In this document: positions 16,028 to 25,148 of the stretch, piece by piece | Layout: every line of letters starts with the position of its first letter | Numbering within the stretch: position 1 is the stretch's first letter | Source: Micrococcales bacterium | Lineage (GTDB): Bacteria; Actinomycetota; Actinomycetes; Actinomycetales; Microbacteriaceae | NCBI GenBank assembly: GCA_947452235.1 | Contig: CANGBK010000010.1 | Location: forward strand, 1-33,216 | Length of the DNA stretch: 33,216 bases | Direction of reading: 5' to 3' | Notes under the pieces: generated by a model | The model's database searches: none | Told to the model about the DNA's origin: nothing | What the model saw: the letters and a program-made list of their open reading frames with translations, nothing else | Translations under genes and position numbers: made by a program

Positions 16028-16576
16028 CTAGGCCTGCATCAAGTCTAAGACATCCTGGGCACACTTGGCTACATCCTCATTGACTACAACATGGTCGAAT
16101 TCCGCCTGGGCAGCGAGCTCCTCCTTGGCGGTTTCTAGGCGAACGGCTATTTGTTCTGGGGACTCAGTGCCGCGTTCAGCCAGTCTTCTACCCAGTTCTT
16201 CCCAACTTGGCGGAGCGATAAAGATCAGGTTGGCCTCAGGCATTGCCTTCTTGACTAAACGAGCTCCCTGAAGGTCAATTTCAAGAATTATCTGTTGATT
16301 ATTGGCGATTGCCTCCTCAACAGGATTTCTAGGTGTTCCATACTTATGTTTCTTATGAACCACCGCGTATTCAAGAAGTTCACCCTTTTTGATCATCTCG
16401 TCGAATTGAGCGTCAGATACAAAGTGATAATGAACACCGTCAAGCTCCCCTGGTCTAGGTTCACGAGTTGTTGCTGAAATTGAGAGTTTCACCTCTGGAT
16501 GATGCTCCAAAATGTATCGAACGACAGTTCCCTTGCCAACCGCAGTTGGCCCAGCGATAACCGTCAATTTTGTCAT
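16028..16576 (-). CDS. gmk: Guanylate kinase
   Basis: Phosphorylates GMP to GDP. 182 residues. P-loop GPTAVGKGT at 9-17, GMP-binding SISATTREPRPGELDGVHYHFV, and LEIDLQGARLVKKAMPEANLIFIAPPSWEEL. Usual length, with no N-terminal extension. It starts 12 bases after pyrF with no strong SD. In many actinobacteria the small nucleoid protein gene mihF lies between pyrF and gmk; it is absent here. Confidence 0.96.
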   Translation of the reverse strand: MTKLTVIAGPTAVGKGTVVRYILEHHPEVKLSISATTREPRPGELDGVHYHFVSDAQFDEMIKKGELLEYAVVHKKHKYGTPRNPVEEAIANNQQIILEIDLQGARLVKKAMPEANLIFIAPPSWEELGRRLAERGTESPEQIAVRLETAKEELAAQAEFDHVVVNEDVAKCAQDVLDLMQA

Positions 16577-16588
16577 GCTTTAAGACTA

Positions 16589-17443
16589 CTAACTAAGGGC
16601 TTGCGCTAGTTCTGAAACATCAGCAGAAACAGCTTGCGAGACATTATTCATGCCATCTCTAAGAGCACTACGACTGATGCTGAAGATAACATTTGATGCG
16701 TTTGAACCAAATATCATCTTTGCTTGCGATATAAGAGCTCCCTGTGCTCCAAATCCTGGCGCAAGGATAGGCGCTGCCAGTTCAGTTAACCCCGCGTTTA
16801 AGCCTTCAAGATCAAACTTTGATTTATCAAGAGTTGCACCAACAACTAAACCAAGATGACCAAATCTACCTTTACTTGTTGCAGTTGCCTTATTGAGTTC
16901 AGCAACTTCCAAAGCCACTTGATTTGCAACGGTTGTCCCACCTGTTTGGGCCGTTTGGATAGTTTTACCCTCTGGGTTTGAAGTTGCACTGAGAATGAAC
17001 AAACCCTTGCCACGCTCGGCTGCAACAGCAATTGCTGGAGATAGCGACCCAACTCCCAAATAAGGAGAAACAGTCAGGGCATCACAAATAAACGGAGCAT
17101 CCTTGCTTAGCCACGCATCGGTATAGGCCTGCATCGTTGTCCCAATATCTCCACGCTTAGCATCGGCTATAACGAGTAGGCCACGTGAAGAGGCCTCTGA
17201 AAGAAGTTTTTCTAGAACTTGGAAACCCTTTGAACCAAAAGATTCAAAAAACGAAATTTGAGGTTTGATAATTCCAACCAGTCCAGAAACCTGGTCCAGC
17301 AAATCAAATGAGAATTTCTCAAGGCCAGCAACATCTAGCGAATAGTCGTTTTCAACAAGCAATTCCCTATGCGGGTCAATCCCAACACAGAGCTGACTCT
17401 TACTGAAAGCTAACTCAAGTTTTCTAGAAAATGACTCAGGCAA
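16589..17443 (-). CDS. pyrF: Orotidine 5'-phosphate decarboxylase, type 2
   Basis: Last step of UMP synthesis, OMP to UMP. 284 residues, the length of the longer (type 2) family found in actinobacteria. [12 protein letters not shown] (18-29) and the catalytic [10 protein letters not shown] (94-103, with Lys96) are intact; the phosphate-binding end shows [11 protein letters not shown]. The start is TTG at 17443, inside the last codons of carB (8-base overlap), with AGGAG eight bases upstream. It is the last gene of the pyr operon. Confidence 0.95.
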
Positions 17444-20400
17444 GAAGCGCTCTCCTATCAGCTGCGTGCTCTTGAAGAGATCTCACTCCGAAAGGACCTG
17501 CAATTACCGTTTCGAAAGATCCAATGGCAGCAGATAACTGAGCGATAGTTGTGAAGATAGGTGCATCTGCTGCTGTTGTTGCTGCACGAATCTCATAACC
17601 ATCCTTACGAGCATCTGAACCGCTAGGAGTATTCACAACGACATCAACTTCACCAGCTGAAATCAATTCAACGATTGAAGGACCCGCAGGTGCTTGATCA
17701 TCAGCTGAGTGTTTGCGAACAACTGTTGCGTTAATGCCATGCCTATTTAGAATCGCAGCCGTTCCGCTGGTTGCAAGAATCTTGTAACCGAGTTGCGAGA
17801 GTCTTCTAACCGGAAGAATTACCTGATGCTTATCTCGATCAGCAACTGAGATGAAGATAGTCCCTGATGTTGGAAGAGCGGATCCAGCTGCAGATTGCGC
17901 TTTCGCAAAAGCGGTTGGAAAATCTACGTCGATACCCATAACTTCACCGGTTGAACGCATCTCTGGACCCAGAAGAGAATCTACAAAGCGGCCATCTTTT
18001 GTTGCGAATCTCTTGAAAGGTAAAACAGCTTCCTTCACTGAAATTGCTGCACCAGCAGGAATATGCGTTCCATCCTGCTTAGGAAGGTGACCTTCTGCAA
18101 CTAGTTCAGCGATTGACTTTCCGACCATAACTAAAGCAGCCGCTTTTGCAAGAGTGATACCAAGTGCTTTAGAAACAAATGGAACTGTTCTAGATGCTCT
18201 TGGGTTTGCTTCAAGAACATAAAGAACATCGTGCGCTAGAGCAAACTGAACATTCAGTAACCCCCTAACACCTATACCTTGAGCAATCTTTAGCGTTGCT
18301 TCACGAACACGATCAATTTGAACATCGCTCAAAGTGATTGGTGGAAGTGTGCAAGAAGAGTCACCCGAGTGAATACCAGCTTCTTCGATGTGTTCCATAA
18401 CTCCACCAACGTATAGCTGTTCACCGTCGAATAAAGCATCAATGTCGATCTCGATGGCGTCATCCAGGAAACGGTCAACTAAAAGTGGATGCTTAGGGCC
18501 CACGATCGCCTGATCTGCAATTCGATCAAAGTATCCTTCAAGTGAATTCTCGTCATAGACAATCTCCATGCCACGTCCACCAAGAACGAAACTTGGGCGA
18601 ACCAGAACTGGGTATCCAATTCGGTTTGCAATTACCTTAGATTCCTCCAAGCTGATTGCTGTTCCGTTAGCCGGAGAGATTAGCTTGGCATCATCCAAAA
18701 TCTTGGAGAAAGCTCCGCGTTCTTCAGCTAGGTCAATAGCATCCGGTGTTGTTCCAAGAATTGGAATGCCATTTTGCTCTAACCCTTGGGCCAAACCTAG
18801 AGCGGTTTGACCACCCAGCTGAACGACAACACCAACAAGTTCCCCACTTTGAGATTCAGCGTGAATAACTTCCAGAACATCTTCTAAGGTCAAAGGTTCG
18901 AAGTAGAGCCTGTCGCTAGTGTCATAATCAGTCGAAACCGTTTCTGGGTTGCAGTTGATCATGATGGTCTCGAAACCAGCGTCATGCAAAGCAAACGATG
19001 CATGCACGCAAGAGTAATCAAACTCAACTCCCTGACCAATACGGTTAGGGCCTGAACCTATGATGACAACCTTACGACTAGCCGAAGGTCTGACTTCTGT
19101 TTGCTGCTCATAGGTGCTGTAGTGATATGGGGTAAGTGCCGGGAATTCACCAGCACAGGTATCAACAGTCTTGAACACCGGCCTGATCCCAGCTTCATAG
19201 CGTTGATGCCTAACCTCTTCTTCAGTTCTTCCCCTAAGTTGTGCAAGTTGAATGTCTGAGAAGCCGTGAGACTTAGCAAAAATCATAAGGTCTTCTGTGA
19301 GCTTGTCTGCAGATGAAAGCTCTTCGGCTATCTGGTTAATGTATTGAATTTGCTCTAGGAACCAAGGATCAATCTTGGTTGCCTCGAACATTTCCTCGAT
19401 TGACGCTCCAAGTCTCATGGCCTGTTGAACAGTAACGATACGACCATCAGTTGGCACCTTAGAGATAGAAACAAGTTCGTCTTTGGATTTAGTTTGCTCT
19501 CCCCAATGGAAAGATGAACCTCTACGCTCCAGGCTTCTAAGAGATTTCTGAAGTGCCTGAGTGAAGTTTCGCCCAATAGCCATAGCTTCACCAACAGATT
19601 TCATGGTCGTGGTTAGGGTTGCATCTGCTGCTGGGAACTTCTCGAAAGCAAATCTAGGAACCTTTACGACAATGTAGTCAAGAGTTGGTTCAAAAGATGC
19701 TGGAGTGACCTTTGTGATGTCATTAGGAATTTCATCCAAACGGTAACCAATAGCTAGCTTGGCTGCAATCTTTGCAATTGGGAACCCAGTTGCCTTAGAT
19801 GCCAATGCTGAAGACCGGCTCACGCGAGGGTTCATCTCAATAACGATGATTCGACCGGTGTCTGGTTCAACTGCAAACTGAATGTTGCAACCACCTGTGT
19901 CAACACCAACAGCACGAATGATGTCAATAGCAATGTCACGGAGTCTCTGATATTCGCGGTCTGTTAAAGTCAGTGCTGGAGCAACAGTTATTGAATCTCC
20001 TGTGTGAACGCCAACCGGATCAACGTTTTCAATAGAACAAACAACGACTGTGTTGTCTGCCTTATCCCTCATCAGCTCAAGCTCATACTCTTTCCAGCCC
20101 AGAATTGATTCTTCAAGCAGAACTTCTGTGGTGGGGCTGGCTTGCAAACCTGCGCCAGCGATTCTGCGAAGGTCTTCTTCGTTGTATGCAAAACCAGACC
20201 CGAGACCACCCATGGTGAAAGATGGTCTGACAACAACTGGGTAACCGAGCTGTGCTGCTCCAGAAAGAACTTCGTCCATCGTGTGCGCGATAACAGACTT
20301 AGCAACATCAGCTCCTGCGTCCAGAACTAGTTGCTTGAAAGACTGTCTGTCTTCACCGGCACGAATGGCGTCAACGTTTGCTCCAATTAGTTCGACGTTG

Positions 20401-20732
20401 TATTTATCAAGAATGCCAAGTTCATGCAGAGACATCGCGGCATTTAGAGCGGTCTGGCCACCGAGTGTCGGCAAGATGGCATCCGGTTTCTCCTTGATGA
20501 TGATTGACTCAATGATCTCTGGTGTGATTGGTTCTATATATGTAGCATCCGCGAAATCAGGGTCGGTCATGATCGTCGCAGGGTTGCTGTTAATCAAGAT
20601 AACTCGAACCCCTTCGGCGCGAAGGACTCGGCAGGCTTGGGTGCCTGAATAGTCAAACTCACATGCCTGACCGATAACAATTGGCCCTGAGCCAATAACT
20701 AGAACGCTTTTGATGTCTTCTCTACGTGGCAT
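17436..20732 (-). CDS. carB: Carbamoyl-phosphate synthase large chain
   Basis: Uses ammonia from CarA, bicarbonate and two ATP to make carbamoyl phosphate for pyrimidines and arginine. 1098 residues, full length. It has duplicated ATP-grasp halves, each opening with a GSGP element ([19 protein letters not shown] near 13; [18 protein letters not shown] near 555). A C-terminal MGS-like allosteric domain occupies about 950-1098 ([23 protein letters not shown]). The ATG overlaps the carA stop by one base (TAATG), and the 3' end overlaps pyrF by 8 bases. Confidence 0.98.
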
Positions 20733-21877
20733 TAGTTAACCTTTGATTTTCTGTTTTCGGCAATCATTTCAATCAGACGATCGAATAAATAGTTGGCATC
20801 GTGCGGGCCAGCAGCTGCCTCTGGGTGGTATTGAACCGAGTACGCAGGAATATCAACACACTCTAACCCTTCGACAACATCATCATTCAGACAGATGTGG
20901 CTTACCTTCACTTGACCAAATCCAGCCGGTGATGGAACAACTTCCCCACCTTCAACCTTCACAGCGAAACCATGGTTGTGAGCTGTAACTTCAACCTTTC
21001 CTGTTGTTCTATCCAGAACAGGCTGGTTAATACCTCGGTGTCCGAAAGCAAGCTTGTAGGTTTCGAAACCTAGAGCTCTACCTAGAAGTTGATTTCCAAA
21101 GCAGATCCCAAAGAAGGGAATCTTCTTGTTGAGAACCTCACGCAGAGCGGCTACTTGAGATTCAGCAGTACTTGGATCTCCTGGGCCATTGCTATAAAAC
21201 ACGGCATCAGGGTTCTCGGAAAGCAAAACATCTGCTGAGGATCTAGCTGGATAAACAATCACATCTAAACCTCGGGCGGTCATGTTTTGAATAGTTGAAC
21301 GCTTGATACCAAGATCCAGTATTGAAATCTTTCCGAAGTATTCACCTTCGTGCTCAACTCTGTAAGGTTCCTTAGTTGAAACAATATCGCTTAGAGATCG
21401 TCCAGCCATAGGCTCTGAAGCTTTGACGAGTTCGATAAGTTCCGTAACTGGTCGTTTTGCTTCGTCGCCGCTGAAGACACCTGCACGCATAACTCCAACA
21501 TCTCTCAGGTGAAGTGTTAGGGCACGAGTGTCCAGTTCCGAGATGCCAACTACTCCATCACGAAGCAGGTCATCTTCAAGAGATCTCTGTGAACGGAAGT
21601 TTGATGTGATTCTTGAAACATCTCTAACAATGTATCCAGCAACCCAAATACGATCTGATTCCGCATCGGTGTCGTTCATACCAGTGTTGCCGATGTGAGG
21701 TGCCGTTTGAAGAACAATCTGCCCGGCATAAGAAGGGTCAGTTAGTGTTTCTTGGTATCCAGACATTCCAGTTGAGAAAACTATCTCACCAAGAGAACTA
21801 CCCTCCTTACCAAAAGGAACTCCGGTGTAAACCTGGCCATCTTCTAGAACTAGAACTGCGTCGCGTGCTCTAATCAA
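20732..21877 (-). CDS. carA: Carbamoyl-phosphate synthase small chain
   Basis: Glutaminase subunit that passes ammonia to CarB. 381 residues. The class I amidotransferase domain carries Cys259 in FFGICFGNQ and His351/Glu353 in [12 protein letters not shown]. The N-terminal domain is typical ([21 protein letters not shown]). The start is TTG at 21877 with AGGAG seven bases upstream, forming a TTGA overlap with the pyrC stop. In mycobacteria a membrane protein gene sits between pyrC and carA; here there is no space for it. Confidence 0.97.
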
Positions 21878-23172
21878 TTGTTCTCTCCTAGCTCTAGAAC
21901 TTTGCCGTCTCTGACTGTCAAAGTACCTTTGTAAATGGTGTGCTTCACAGCACCGTTTAGTTCCATACCCGCGTATGGGTTGTTGTTACTCTTGCTTTCG
22001 CCTTCGCGATCAATAACCTGTTTAGCCTTTGGGTCAATCAAAACAATGTTTGCGTAAGAACCTGGTGTCAGTTCTTGACCTTGGTCGCTCAGCTTTCCAA
22101 TTCTTGCTGGATTGCTTGAGAGCACTTCTTGGAATCTCTTCCAGTCGATAAGTCCAGTTTCAATCAGTGTTGTTTGAGCAATTGCTGCTGCAGTTTCTAA
22201 ACCGAGCATTCCAAATGCGGCCTCACCCCATTCGCAATCCTTGCTATCTTCTGGATGAGGTGCGTGATCGGTTGCGATGATATCTATAGTTCCATCGGCT
22301 ACAGCCAATCTCAACGCTTCAACATCCTTCTGTGTTCTTAGCGGAGGATTTACCTTATAGAGCGGGTCATATTCACTCGCTAAATCTTCGGTTAGTAGTA
22401 AGTGATGAGGTGTCACTTCAGCAGTAACTTTGATTCCTCTAGCCTTAGCCCAACGAATGATGTCTACTGAACCTGCAGTTGAAACATGGCAAATATGCAA
22501 TCTTGAATCCACCTCTTCTGCAAGAAGAACATCTCTAGCTATGATTGCTTGCTCGGCAACCTGAGGCCAACCGGTAAGCCCTAGCTTCATTGAAAGTTCG
22601 CCTTCATTCATCTGCGCATTGACAGTAAGAGCAGGATCTTGAGCATGCTGAGCAATCACACCCTCGAAACTCTTGACGTATTCCAAAGCTCTTCTCATCA
22701 CTAGAGAGTCGCTAACACACTTACCGTCGTCGCTAAAGACTGTCACGGTAGCTGAAGACTTATTCATCTTGCCCATGTCTGATAGCTGAGAGCCTTCAAG
22801 ATTTACTGTTACTGCTCCGATTGGCTGAACCTGGACGTAACCTGCTTTCTTGCCTAAGGCAAATACCTGCTCAACAACAGCTGCGTTATCAGCTACCGGA
22901 GCGGTATTAGCCATTGCATGAACCGAAGTGAATCCACCTTTTGCGGCCGCCTTTGAACCAGTGAGGATGGTTTCACTTCCTTCAAAACCTGGCTCTCTAA
23001 GGTGAGTGTGAAGGTCGACTAGACCACTAAGAGCAATCAATCCAGAAGCATCAATGAGTTCACCGGTGGAACTTAGGTTGCTTCCAACCTGGACAATCAT
23101 TTGATCATTGATTTCTATGTCAACAACTGTTCCGTCGGCTAGTTGAGCATTCTTGATTAGGTAATGTGACAT
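21874..23172 (-). CDS. pyrC: Dihydroorotase (class I)
   Basis: Zinc enzyme cyclising carbamoyl aspartate to dihydroorotate. 432 residues. Metal ligands as expected: [10 protein letters not shown] (His55, His57), FSDDG (146-150, the Asp used in place of a carboxylated lysine in this class), His176 in IAQHAQDP, His229 in HICHVS, and TDHAPH (301-306). The start ATG overlaps the pyrB stop by one base (TAATG). Length and motifs indicate a catalytically active form, not the inactive pseudo-dihydroorotase found next to some PyrB proteins. Confidence 0.97.
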
Positions 23173-24113
23173 TACGCTTTCCCTTCTTGAGCTAAAAGTC
23201 TGTAGAGAACAGCCATTCGCACGGCAACACCGTTTGCTACCTGTTCCAAGATTGTTGATTGAGCTGAATCAGCAGCCTTTGAAGAAATTTCTAGGCCTCT
23301 GTTCATAGGTCCTGGGTGCATCACGAGAGTCTTAGAAGATAACGAGTCAAACCTTGAATCTGTAAGGCCAAAGAGCTGTGAATACTCTTTAGCGTTAGGG
23401 ATGAATGCTGAGTTCATTCGCTCTGCCTGAATTCTAAGCATCATCACGACATCAAAGTTCTGAGCAAGTGCTTGGTCAAAGTCATAATAGATTTCATCAA
23501 CGAGACCAAGAGAAGCTGATGGAACCAAAGTCGAAGGCCCACAGTAAGAGACCTTTGCACCAAGTTTTCTAAGCAAAAGCGCGTTAGATCTGGCAACTCT
23601 TGAATGAAGTATGTCTCCAACAATTAACACTCGAACACCAGATAGATCCCCCTGGTCTAATCCATTCAACCTTTGTCTGATGGTCAGGCTATCCAATAGT
23701 CCTTGAGTCGGATGTTCGTGTGTTCCATCGCCAGCGTTGATAACGGCTGAGGTTGACCATGGTGCATTAGCAATAGTGAGAGCTGCTCCGCTGTGATGAT
23801 GGCGAACGATAAGTGCGTCAACACCCATAGCTTCGAGAGTTCCGATTGTGTCTTTTAGGGATTCACCTTTACTAACTGAAGATCCTTTAGCGGTGAAATT
23901 GACTACGTCAGCCGACAATCTTTTGGCGGCGAGTTCGAATGAGAATCTAGTTCTGGTTGAATCCTCAAAGAAGAGATTCACCACTGTTCTGCCATTCAGA
24001 GCGGGAAGCTTCTTCACGTCCCTCTTATTTACTTCTTGCATCTGAGCGGAAAGATTCAGAAGGTCAATTGCTTCTTGTTTAGAAAGATCGTTGATGGATA
24101 GAAGGTGCCTCAC
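23172..24113 (-). CDS. pyrB: Aspartate carbamoyltransferase catalytic chain
   Basis: Joins carbamoyl phosphate and aspartate, the first committed pyrimidine step. 313 residues. The carbamoyl phosphate loop is [11 protein letters not shown] (50-60), with [19 protein letters not shown] and the aspartate-site [10 protein letters not shown] following. No pyrI regulatory subunit gene is present, so allosteric control of the enterobacterial kind is not expected; control probably comes from PyrR. The start is GTG, overlapping the pyrR stop as GTGA; the N-terminus [10 protein letters not shown] fits the family. Confidence 0.97.
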
Positions 24114-24649
24114 TGCTCAATCACCACTGACTGCTCTTCATCTGTTTCTGTAAGGTGAACGTTGATTCGTTCAGTAACACTAGTGGGTAGGTTCTTTCCA
24201 ACATAGTCAGCTCGAATGGGGAGTTCTCTGTGACCTCTGTCAACAAGAACAGCTAATCGAACAGCTTTAGGTCTTCCATATGAAACTATGGCGTCAAGAG
24301 CTGCTCTAATAGTTCGTCCGCTGAACAGGACATCGTCAACTAAAACAACAGTTTTTTCATCTAATGAACCAACAGGAATCTCGGTTGGTGTGACTTCCCT
24401 ATTGGGTTTGGCGCTTAGATCATCTCTAAACATCGTGACATCAAGCCGTCCAAGGGATTCTTCAACATCGAAATCTGGGTAGTTCTTCTTTATGGAGTTG
24501 GCTATACGTTTAGCCAAAAACACGCCTCTAGTTGGAATTCCTAAAAGTAAGAGATTTTCTGTTCCGTGATTCGCTTCGACTATTTCATGAGAAATGCGAA
24601 TTATGGCCCGATCGATATCGGCCGCGTCTAAGACTGTGCGTAGGCTCAT
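24110..24649 (-). CDS. pyrR: Bifunctional pyr operon regulator / uracil phosphoribosyltransferase
   Basis: RNA-binding regulator of the pyr operon with uracil phosphoribosyltransferase activity. 179 residues. The PRPP-binding motif [13 protein letters not shown] is at 101-113. Two in-frame ATGs lie close together (24655 and 24649). AAGGAG touches the first directly but is six bases before the second, so I choose 24649, giving [13 protein letters not shown]. Just upstream is a hairpin that fits a PyrR-binding loop and can hide the same SD. PyrR therefore probably represses its own translation and, through coupled starts, that of pyrB onward when UMP is high. Confidence 0.96.
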
Positions 24650-24655
24650 GCACAT

Positions 24656-24690
24656 CTCCTTCTGCGCCTCACAGGACGCCTTTAAAGGAC
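24656..24690 (-). promoter_or_regulatory. PyrR-binding hairpin that sequesters the pyrR SD
   Basis: On the minus strand an upper stem GCGTC/GGCGC (24679-24675 with 24668-24664) holds the hexaloop CTGTGA. Below it is a purine-rich internal bulge (AAAG on one side, AG on the other). A lower stem TCCTT/AAGGA then pairs 24689-24685 with 24661-24657. This stem, bulge, stem and hexaloop layout, with GTCCTGTGAGGC across the top, is what is known for PyrR-binding loops. The 3' strand of the lower stem is the pyrR SD itself, so PyrR bound to UMP would block translation. PyrR-dependent translational repression has been described in Mycobacterium smegmatis; application here is inference from fold and position. 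Confidence 0.8.
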
Positions 24691-24702
24691 TTGTTTGGAA
24701 AT

Positions 24703-24708
24703 AGTTTA
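24703..24708 (-). promoter_or_regulatory. Possible -10 box of the pyr operon
   Basis: TAAACT on the minus strand in the 79-bp nusB-pyrR gap, the widest in the window. A start about seven bases downstream (near 24696) would place the transcript 5' end a few bases before the PyrR hairpin, which is sensible for a short regulatory leader. There is no good -35 at 16-18 bases (TTAGTT at best), so this is tentative. Confidence 0.3.
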
Positions 24709-24728
24709 GTGCTATTTGTTGCTTGAAA

Positions 24729-25148
24729 CTAAATTGGCTTGCGTGTTGCCGCTATTGCAGCCAAAACACCGTTCACGAAAGTCGATGAATCGTCGGTTGA
24801 GAGCTCGCTGGCCAGAGCAACAGCTTCAGAGATGACCACTTGAGCCGGAGTTTCATTAGCGAAAGCAAGTTCGTAAGTTGCAACCCTAAGAATCGCACGG
24901 TCAACGGCAGGCATGCGCTCTAAAGGCCAGTTCTGTGAAACGCTCTCTAGCAAAGCATCGATTTCGAGCTGGTTAGCTAGAACACCTTGAACTAGATCGT
25001 TAGCGAAGTCAAATATCTCATCTTGATTCTGATGATCTATGACACTTTGCTTAGTTTCTTCAAGTAAATCGGTAGCCATCGCATCACGCAGTTCAGCTGC
25101 GTATAGAGCGTCAACTGCGCGTTTGCGGGATTTAGTTCTAGAACTCAC
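24729..25148 (-). CDS. nusB: Transcription antitermination factor NusB
   Basis: All-helical RNA-binding protein of the rRNA antitermination complex with NusE (S10). 139 residues. SRTKSRKRAVDALYAAELR at the N-terminus, NWPLERMPAVDRAILRVATYEL and INEAV-like [25 protein letters not shown] are the family landmarks. The start is GTG at 25148, four bases after efp. The only AGG lies immediately against the start codon, too close for normal use, so translation may depend on coupling to efp. Confidence 0.95.
   Translation of the reverse strand: MSSRTKSRKRAVDALYAAELRDAMATDLLEETKQSVIDHQNQDEIFDFANDLVQGVLANQLEIDALLESVSQNWPLERMPAVDRAILRVATYELAFANETPAQVVISEAVALASELSTDDSSTFVNGVLAAIAATRKPI

Follow-up and report, generated by a model that had tools for sequence, protein, structure and literature searches.

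The window, which is the whole stretch of 33,216 nucleotides that was analysed, has nusB (stop at 24729) and pyrR (ATG at 24649) as neighbours on its minus strand, separated by a leader of roughly 80 nt. The pyrR gene (24110..24649) was identified by NCBIfam NF003547 (253.4 bits, cut-off 230) and matched solved PyrR structures to 1e-53. It is followed on the same strand by pyrB (23172..24113, GTGA overlap with pyrR), pyrC (21874..23172, TAATG overlap with pyrB), carA (20732..21877, TTGA overlap with pyrC), carB (17436..20732, TAATG overlap with carA) and pyrF (16589..17443, 8-base overlap with carB). The first-pass annotation had read these genes as one operon reaching to pyrF with overlapping starts, and all five overlaps as well as the order pyrR-pyrB-pyrC-carA-carB-pyrF were found. 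The start codon of pyrR was taken to be the ATG at 24647..24649 (minus strand), 7 nt past an AAGGA motif, which is the most frequent spacing among relatives; the ATG at 24655, the choice of the ORF finder, was rejected because it sits too near to the Shine-Dalgarno (SD) sequence. The genus of the window is of Microbacteriaceae type and, its PyrR being 80% identical to that of a MAG named Rhodoluna sp., probably Rhodoluna-like. At the far end of the operon, gmk (16028-16576) begins 12 nt after pyrF, and pyrimidine control may therefore reach guanylate kinase.

Both reading of the sequence and folding gave a PyrR-type loop at 24657-24689 of the minus strand, with a lower stem built from the pyrR SD. 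The 5’ arm of the lower stem, UCCUU (24685..24689), falls within the match of a covariance model made from relatives only (24653-24693). It leads into an internal loop with UAAAG on its 5’ side (24680..24684, AAAG being 24683-24680), where a TTTAA motif is conserved among relatives. The upper stem pairs GCGUC (24675..24679) with GGCGC (24664..24668), its closing pair covarying above a tree null as detailed below, and it carries the hexaloop CUGUGA (24669..24674), which has the pattern CNGNGA and fits the Rfam PyrR loop. The 3’ arm of the lower stem is AAGGA (24657..24661), whose position and pairing are kept in relatives, and U24684 can form a wobble with G24662, extending the lower stem of U24689-U24685 with A24661-A24657. 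Upper stem, hexaloop and lower stem had all been named in the first-pass annotation and were reproduced here. That AAGGA serves the ATG at 24649 as SD, also stated there, was borne out as well, the SD being AAGGAG (24661-24656) with the 7-nt spacing and with stem pairing conserved in relatives.

The isolated 34-nt loop folded exactly as described at −10.6 kcal/mol (z −1.46). Given that 17/200 shuffles were equally stable, stability of the loop by itself is weak evidence. The 72-nt leader (24625-24696) was no more stable than its shuffles (z −0.23), and in a 100-nt transcript of the window (24597-24696) another fold won and the probability of the loop fell to 0.18, while averaged folds of the genus kept the loop at about 0.7. 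The competing fold, which the genus does not conserve, places the SD in a loop and engages bases of the hexaloop and upper stem with codons near the start of pyrR. We did not build on this optimum of the longer transcript, in which loop bases CUGUG pair with codons 4-6, because it is tied to a coding change of the window’s own lineage and the genus average retains the PyrR loop. A coding CCGUC that mimics the 5’ arm of the upper stem was likewise rejected as an anti-loop, for it remains CCGUC where the stem is GCGUC/GGCGC.

Homology was decisive for the identity of the loop. A search of the window leader with the Rfam PyrR model (RF00515), named as a check in the first-pass annotation, ranked this family first, with a score of 31.7 bits and an E of 0.018 over 601 bases, though under the gathering score of 54 bits. 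Seven other actinobacterial leaders scored 28.2-32.8 bits, with 7/7 below the gathering score, indicating that the shortfall is not specific to the window. The 115 positions of RF00515 also take in a segment further downstream, which the window either lacks or has in dissimilar form. The leader does have the hexaloop CNGNGA on an upper stem of 5-6 bp, and the 5’ internal loop with the conserved lower stem CCUU/AAGG; the intrinsic terminator that follows the loop in the attenuator form is absent. A second covariance model (R1), constructed from the loops of 27 relatives with the window excluded, found a single site in the window’s genome at 48.5 bits (E 7.9e-12). The PyrR loop was accepted on these grounds, RF00515 being the best family and the R1 match the only one in the genome. 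Across the class, R1 found a site in 147/148 sampled genomes, nearly always one per genome, and across the phylum in 84/119, and it works without the Rfam cut-off. This widens the signature of translational control by PyrR from one tested mycobacterium to nearly all sampled genomes of the class.

Six genomes were re-examined. Five of them (G023, 82% complete, G072, G038, G055 and G316) had no R1 site at E 0.01 or better, and in the same five no PyrR was found, or a weak phosphoribosyltransferase match only (G316). In the sixth, G037 (locus L182), PyrR is present, yet no R1 site was found at E 0.01 or better. Further Rfam PyrR matches in the window’s genome (28.1, 25.7 and 20.9 bits), with an H1-like/MFS pair, rpsT and groEL as neighbours by names from reading translations, were dismissed as chance, and R1 misses them. 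Two loop matches each were seen in G249 in the class search and in G425 and G450 in the phylum search, G249 belonging to another family than the genus g138 described below.

Conservation was examined in 154 family leaders on an anchored alignment, from which L101, L105 and L130 were dropped for irregular spacing or loop and in which L020 had no leader. The tree held 151 distinct rows (122 from the family and 29 from the window’s own genus), and the null was obtained by simulating columns along a tree built from the pyrR sequence that follows the leaders. The closing pair of the upper stem covaried in the 122 family leaders (E 0.003; C-G 107, U-A 6, U-G 4) and in the 29 genus leaders (0/300 nulls as high; C-G 15, G-C 12, U-A 2), thus bearing out the covariation among related leaders that the first-pass annotation had looked to as a check. 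Among the 27 sequences of R1, 92.3% of cells were paired compared with 51-71% for slid versions, five pairs had two-sided changes, and 0/500 shuffles attained the covariation score. As for the SD, AAGG lies exactly 13 nt past the start of the hexaloop in 171/177 loci, and the four-pair core CCUU/AAGG is intact in 119/122 family and 29/29 genus leaders. The CNGNGA hexaloop was found in 29/29 genus leaders and in nearly all family leaders, the loop being one base shorter in three of the latter (L035, L084 and L109). An SD hairpin independent of PyrR, such as a thermosensor or a constitutive brake, that merely resembles a PyrR loop is hardly credible when this specific hexaloop is conserved class-wide and the loop adjoins pyrR, or carA in split operons.

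As to where the transcript begins, a −10-like box TAAACT (24703..24708, minus strand) lies 19 nt upstream of the lower stem. In 155/168 leaders a TANNNT box precedes the lower stem by 12-24 nt, compared with an average of 0.34 hits per distance at control distances; a consensus −35 was not found, and a sigma-70 scan of the window leader gave nothing. The conserved box places the predicted transcript start near 24696, just a few bases ahead of the loop, in which case the operator would occupy the entire 5’ leader. A terminator scan of 24500-24900 returned no terminator-like site, in agreement with the claim of the first-pass annotation that the leader has none. Bacillus-like transcription attenuation, in which PyrR binding frees a downstream terminator, would suit a loop homologous to the Bacillus anti-antiterminator loop. 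It is nevertheless very improbable here, with the scan negative, a gap of just 7 nt between AAGGA and the start codon, and a stem that is the SD itself; a polarity-type effect may follow once translation is lost. The pyr attenuators of Bacillus subtilis and RF00515 share hexaloop, upper stem, internal loop and lower stem with the window leader, which differs from them in lacking antiterminator and terminator and in scoring under the gathering threshold.

A closer counterpart is the pyr operon of Mycobacterium smegmatis, for which Fields and Switzer reportedly described PyrR-dependent translational repression in 2007, and in which regulation is reportedly absent from a transcriptional fusion that carries a foreign SD. 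As in the window, a PyrR loop stands at the 5’ end of that operon, a terminator is absent and the first ribosome-binding site is occluded. In the window the SD is itself the 3’ arm of the lower stem, which may set it apart from that operon, and it differs in that a helix from the coding region holds the start codon. In the window the loop occludes the first pyr SD and a PyrR gene is present in the genome, as control of the M. smegmatis type entails. We consider it very probable that the element is a PyrR translational operator under this type of control, with the start-codon helix as likely second lock, and the translational interpretation of the first-pass annotation is supported.

Loops of this kind are the targets of PyrR at high UMP levels. 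By homology and by analogy with M. smegmatis, PyrR almost certainly binds the loop of the window as well, presumably together with UMP: with UMP plentiful, PyrR would occupy the loop at the extreme 5’ end of the pyr mRNA and lock the lower stem that holds the pyrR SD, so that 30S subunits would be unable to dock. The untranslated pyrR would in turn leave the genes down to pyrF untranslated through the overlapping starts, by which control is presumably coupled along the operon. Scarcity of UMP would let the short lower stem open, and the operon would be translated. In Microbacteriaceae, a helix formed with the first pyrR codons in addition holds the start codon, most likely slowing 30S docking such that PyrR wins the race.

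This helix emerged from the coding sequence. Codons 3-6 of pyrR in the window’s genus (NCA CGC ACC GTC) are under synonymous constraint (z 5.7-7.9); no other of the 119 codon columns, the start codon apart, is constrained as strongly. With the bases that directly follow the SD they form a hairpin, H2, which has the start codon inside it or at its closing end. In the window its 5’ arm is UGUGC (24650..24654) and its 3’ arm GCACA (24635..24639, codons 4-5), both on the minus strand; the 5’ arm is found in the MFE and centroid folds of 24625-24696, the helix having a probability of 0.71 in this 72-nt transcript, and the 3’ arm is backed by the synonymous constraint and the helix probability. H2 coexists with the PyrR loop in the minimum and centroid folds of the window’s first 72 nt. 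The first-pass account of the leader did not include this conserved start-codon helix from the coding region.

Across the genus, a stem of 4 bp or more holds the start codon in 26/26 distinct sequences, and the mean probability of the H2 core helix is 0.90, compared with 0.11 for synonymous variants, being higher in 27/28. The start region is also more stable than its synonymous versions (z −1.3, 33 sequences), compared with z −0.27 to 0.06 at five intragenic control places. Changes that preserve H2 were observed, with A-U replacing G-C in L032 and U-A at the loop end in L218 and L220, and shifted hairpins are used by L005/L006, of the window’s lineage, and by L224. Covariation of H2 columns was weak (a two-sided change in 1/7 pairs; 55/500 shuffles as high) since there is little variation in these columns and the shifted or changed cases are split up by the aligner. 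Synonymous codon choice maintains a helix over the pyrR start codon, a feature that is apparently undescribed, and selection holds protein-coding sequence to form part of an operator. H2 may act as a second lock or as a competitor of an extended binding loop.

The control by the PyrR loop would be of the already known M. smegmatis type, and the start-codon helix is the new part. Our literature search for PyrR with start codon, stem-loop or translation initiation, or with Microbacteriaceae, listed no paper whose title pointed to an element within the coding region, although its coverage excludes the majority of subscription papers. PMC13328217 cites Fields and Switzer 2007, PMC3766115 treats PyrR sites among RNA regulons including those of Corynebacteriaceae and Mycobacteriaceae, and the passages of PMC4347634 on PyrR give the Bacillus mechanism only.

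The rest of Microbacteriaceae has a different helix at this place. There, codons 10-11 supply a CUGA[C/U] that pairs with the GUC[A/G]G immediately following the SD (P2), enclosing an inner GCAC/GUGC hairpin of codons 3-4 with 6-7 (P3), and both emerged unaided in averaged family folds. Codon 10 of family pyrR is GCT in 74/90 Ala compared with 8% elsewhere in the gene (binomial p 5e-65, uncorrected for ancestry), and it is also NCU in 8/12 Ser, 5/7 Pro and 2/2 Thr. Among 44 four-fold columns its third base changes least often on the tree (21 times, against a median of 44), followed by that of codon 6 (26). At least 4/5 P2 pairs form in 93/122 family leaders, with slid versions reaching at most 11. 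With the PyrR loop present, P2 has a probability of 0.40 compared with 0.05 for synonymous variants, and the lower stem of the loop is unaffected by these variants (0.67 vs 0.66).

The synonymous bias could also reflect a codon or translation effect (a 5’ codon ramp, an internal promoter or a protein site) and involve no RNA helix. The weak covariation of H2 columns would be in keeping with this, as would Leu codon 16 of family pyrR (e.g., L041 and L047), which is likewise biased, being TTG in 45/115 compared with 4% elsewhere; it is usually followed by AC[C/T] to give TTGAC and has no partner in averaged folds. However, the bias follows the nucleotide and not the amino acid, as NCU prevails at codon 10 whether the residue is Ala, Ser, Pro or Thr, the biased codons 3, 6 and 10 lie in helices that average folds recovered unaided, and the same layout recurs in another gene (carA) of another genus (g138). 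We therefore regard an explanation by codon effects as improbable and retain the helix.

How such a helix would act is a separate matter. It could be an ON element, a competitor: the coding helix, once formed, would leave the lower stem shorter, and ribosomes would be admitted until PyrR binds. The GUC past the SD in the family has two partners, the GAC at the 5’ edge of the loop, with which it pairs in most family leaders to lengthen the lower stem, or GA[C/U] of codon 11. Given that P2 and the extended lower stem have GUC in common, the two helices are mutually exclusive. Both partners are kept, with at most 1/300 tree nulls as high for each extension pair, and at least 2/3 extension pairs are present in 104/122 leaders. 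The ensemble shows both helices (about 0.27 and 0.43), and folding from the SD onward gave P2 a probability of 0.64 compared with 0.10 for synonymous variants. Against this, the window’s genus has lost the GUC and its hairpin on the start codon looks lock-like, and the AAGG core would still be free to pair in either state with P2. The competitor role is thus the less probable one, though it deserves serious consideration, and the second lock is the reading that we prefer.

Outside Microbacteriaceae, a start-codon hairpin of pyrR as a class-wide rule was unsupported: pairing of the start codon showed no excess over randomised sequences in 41 order/class sites (0.40 vs 0.45) or in 64 Micrococcaceae-type sites (0.48 vs 0.47). 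In g138, another actinomycete genus that we guess to be Nocardioides-like, a local helix at the pyrR start was found in 16/20 sites, somewhat commoner than random.

The same genus offered a further view of the layout. Six g138 genomes in the class search carried a second loop 4-16 kb from the first, and two sites were found in 23/40 g138 genomes. We read 24 second sites (20 + 4, including L214-L217 and L314-L333), leaving out G465 and G482. All 24/24 precede carA with AAGGA as the 3’ arm of the stem, carAB being split from pyrR-pyrBC. A carAB that acquires a separate loop and SD on leaving the operon is expected if the operator acts on translation. Like the window, the carA sites have a −10 box, an SD within the lower stem of the loop and a start-codon hairpin; unlike in the window, they precede carA after a split and the hairpin sequence differs. 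Codon 4 of carA is CAT in 12/12 His, CCT in 9/9 Pro and CGC in 3/3 Arg of the 24 sites, in contrast to the carA body, where His is CAT in only 2/79. The bases of this codon close a hairpin of the GGCGUGC-nnnn-GCAUGCC type with the start codon, representing a third helix. With three lineages using different helices at the same place, the role of the clamp becomes testable by synonymous mutations alone. As a tentative generalization, for which the balance falls slightly short of even, PyrR translational operators in several actinobacterial lineages may be two-part RNA devices in which the SD is taken up by the loop and the start codon by a helix that is specific to the lineage and encoded in the first codons through synonymous choice. 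For the majority of Microbacteriaceae, that helix would share GUC with the lower stem and so make a switch, and the layout would have been made anew at carA upon the operon split.

Two of the leaders dropped from the alignment have unusual loops. L130, from one Microbacteriaceae genome, has a degenerate binding loop ahead of an intact pyrR, and L105 has tandem hexaloop hairpins, CUGUCCCGAGAGACAG and CCGUACGAGAGACGG, within one lower stem, possibly a doubled PyrR loop.
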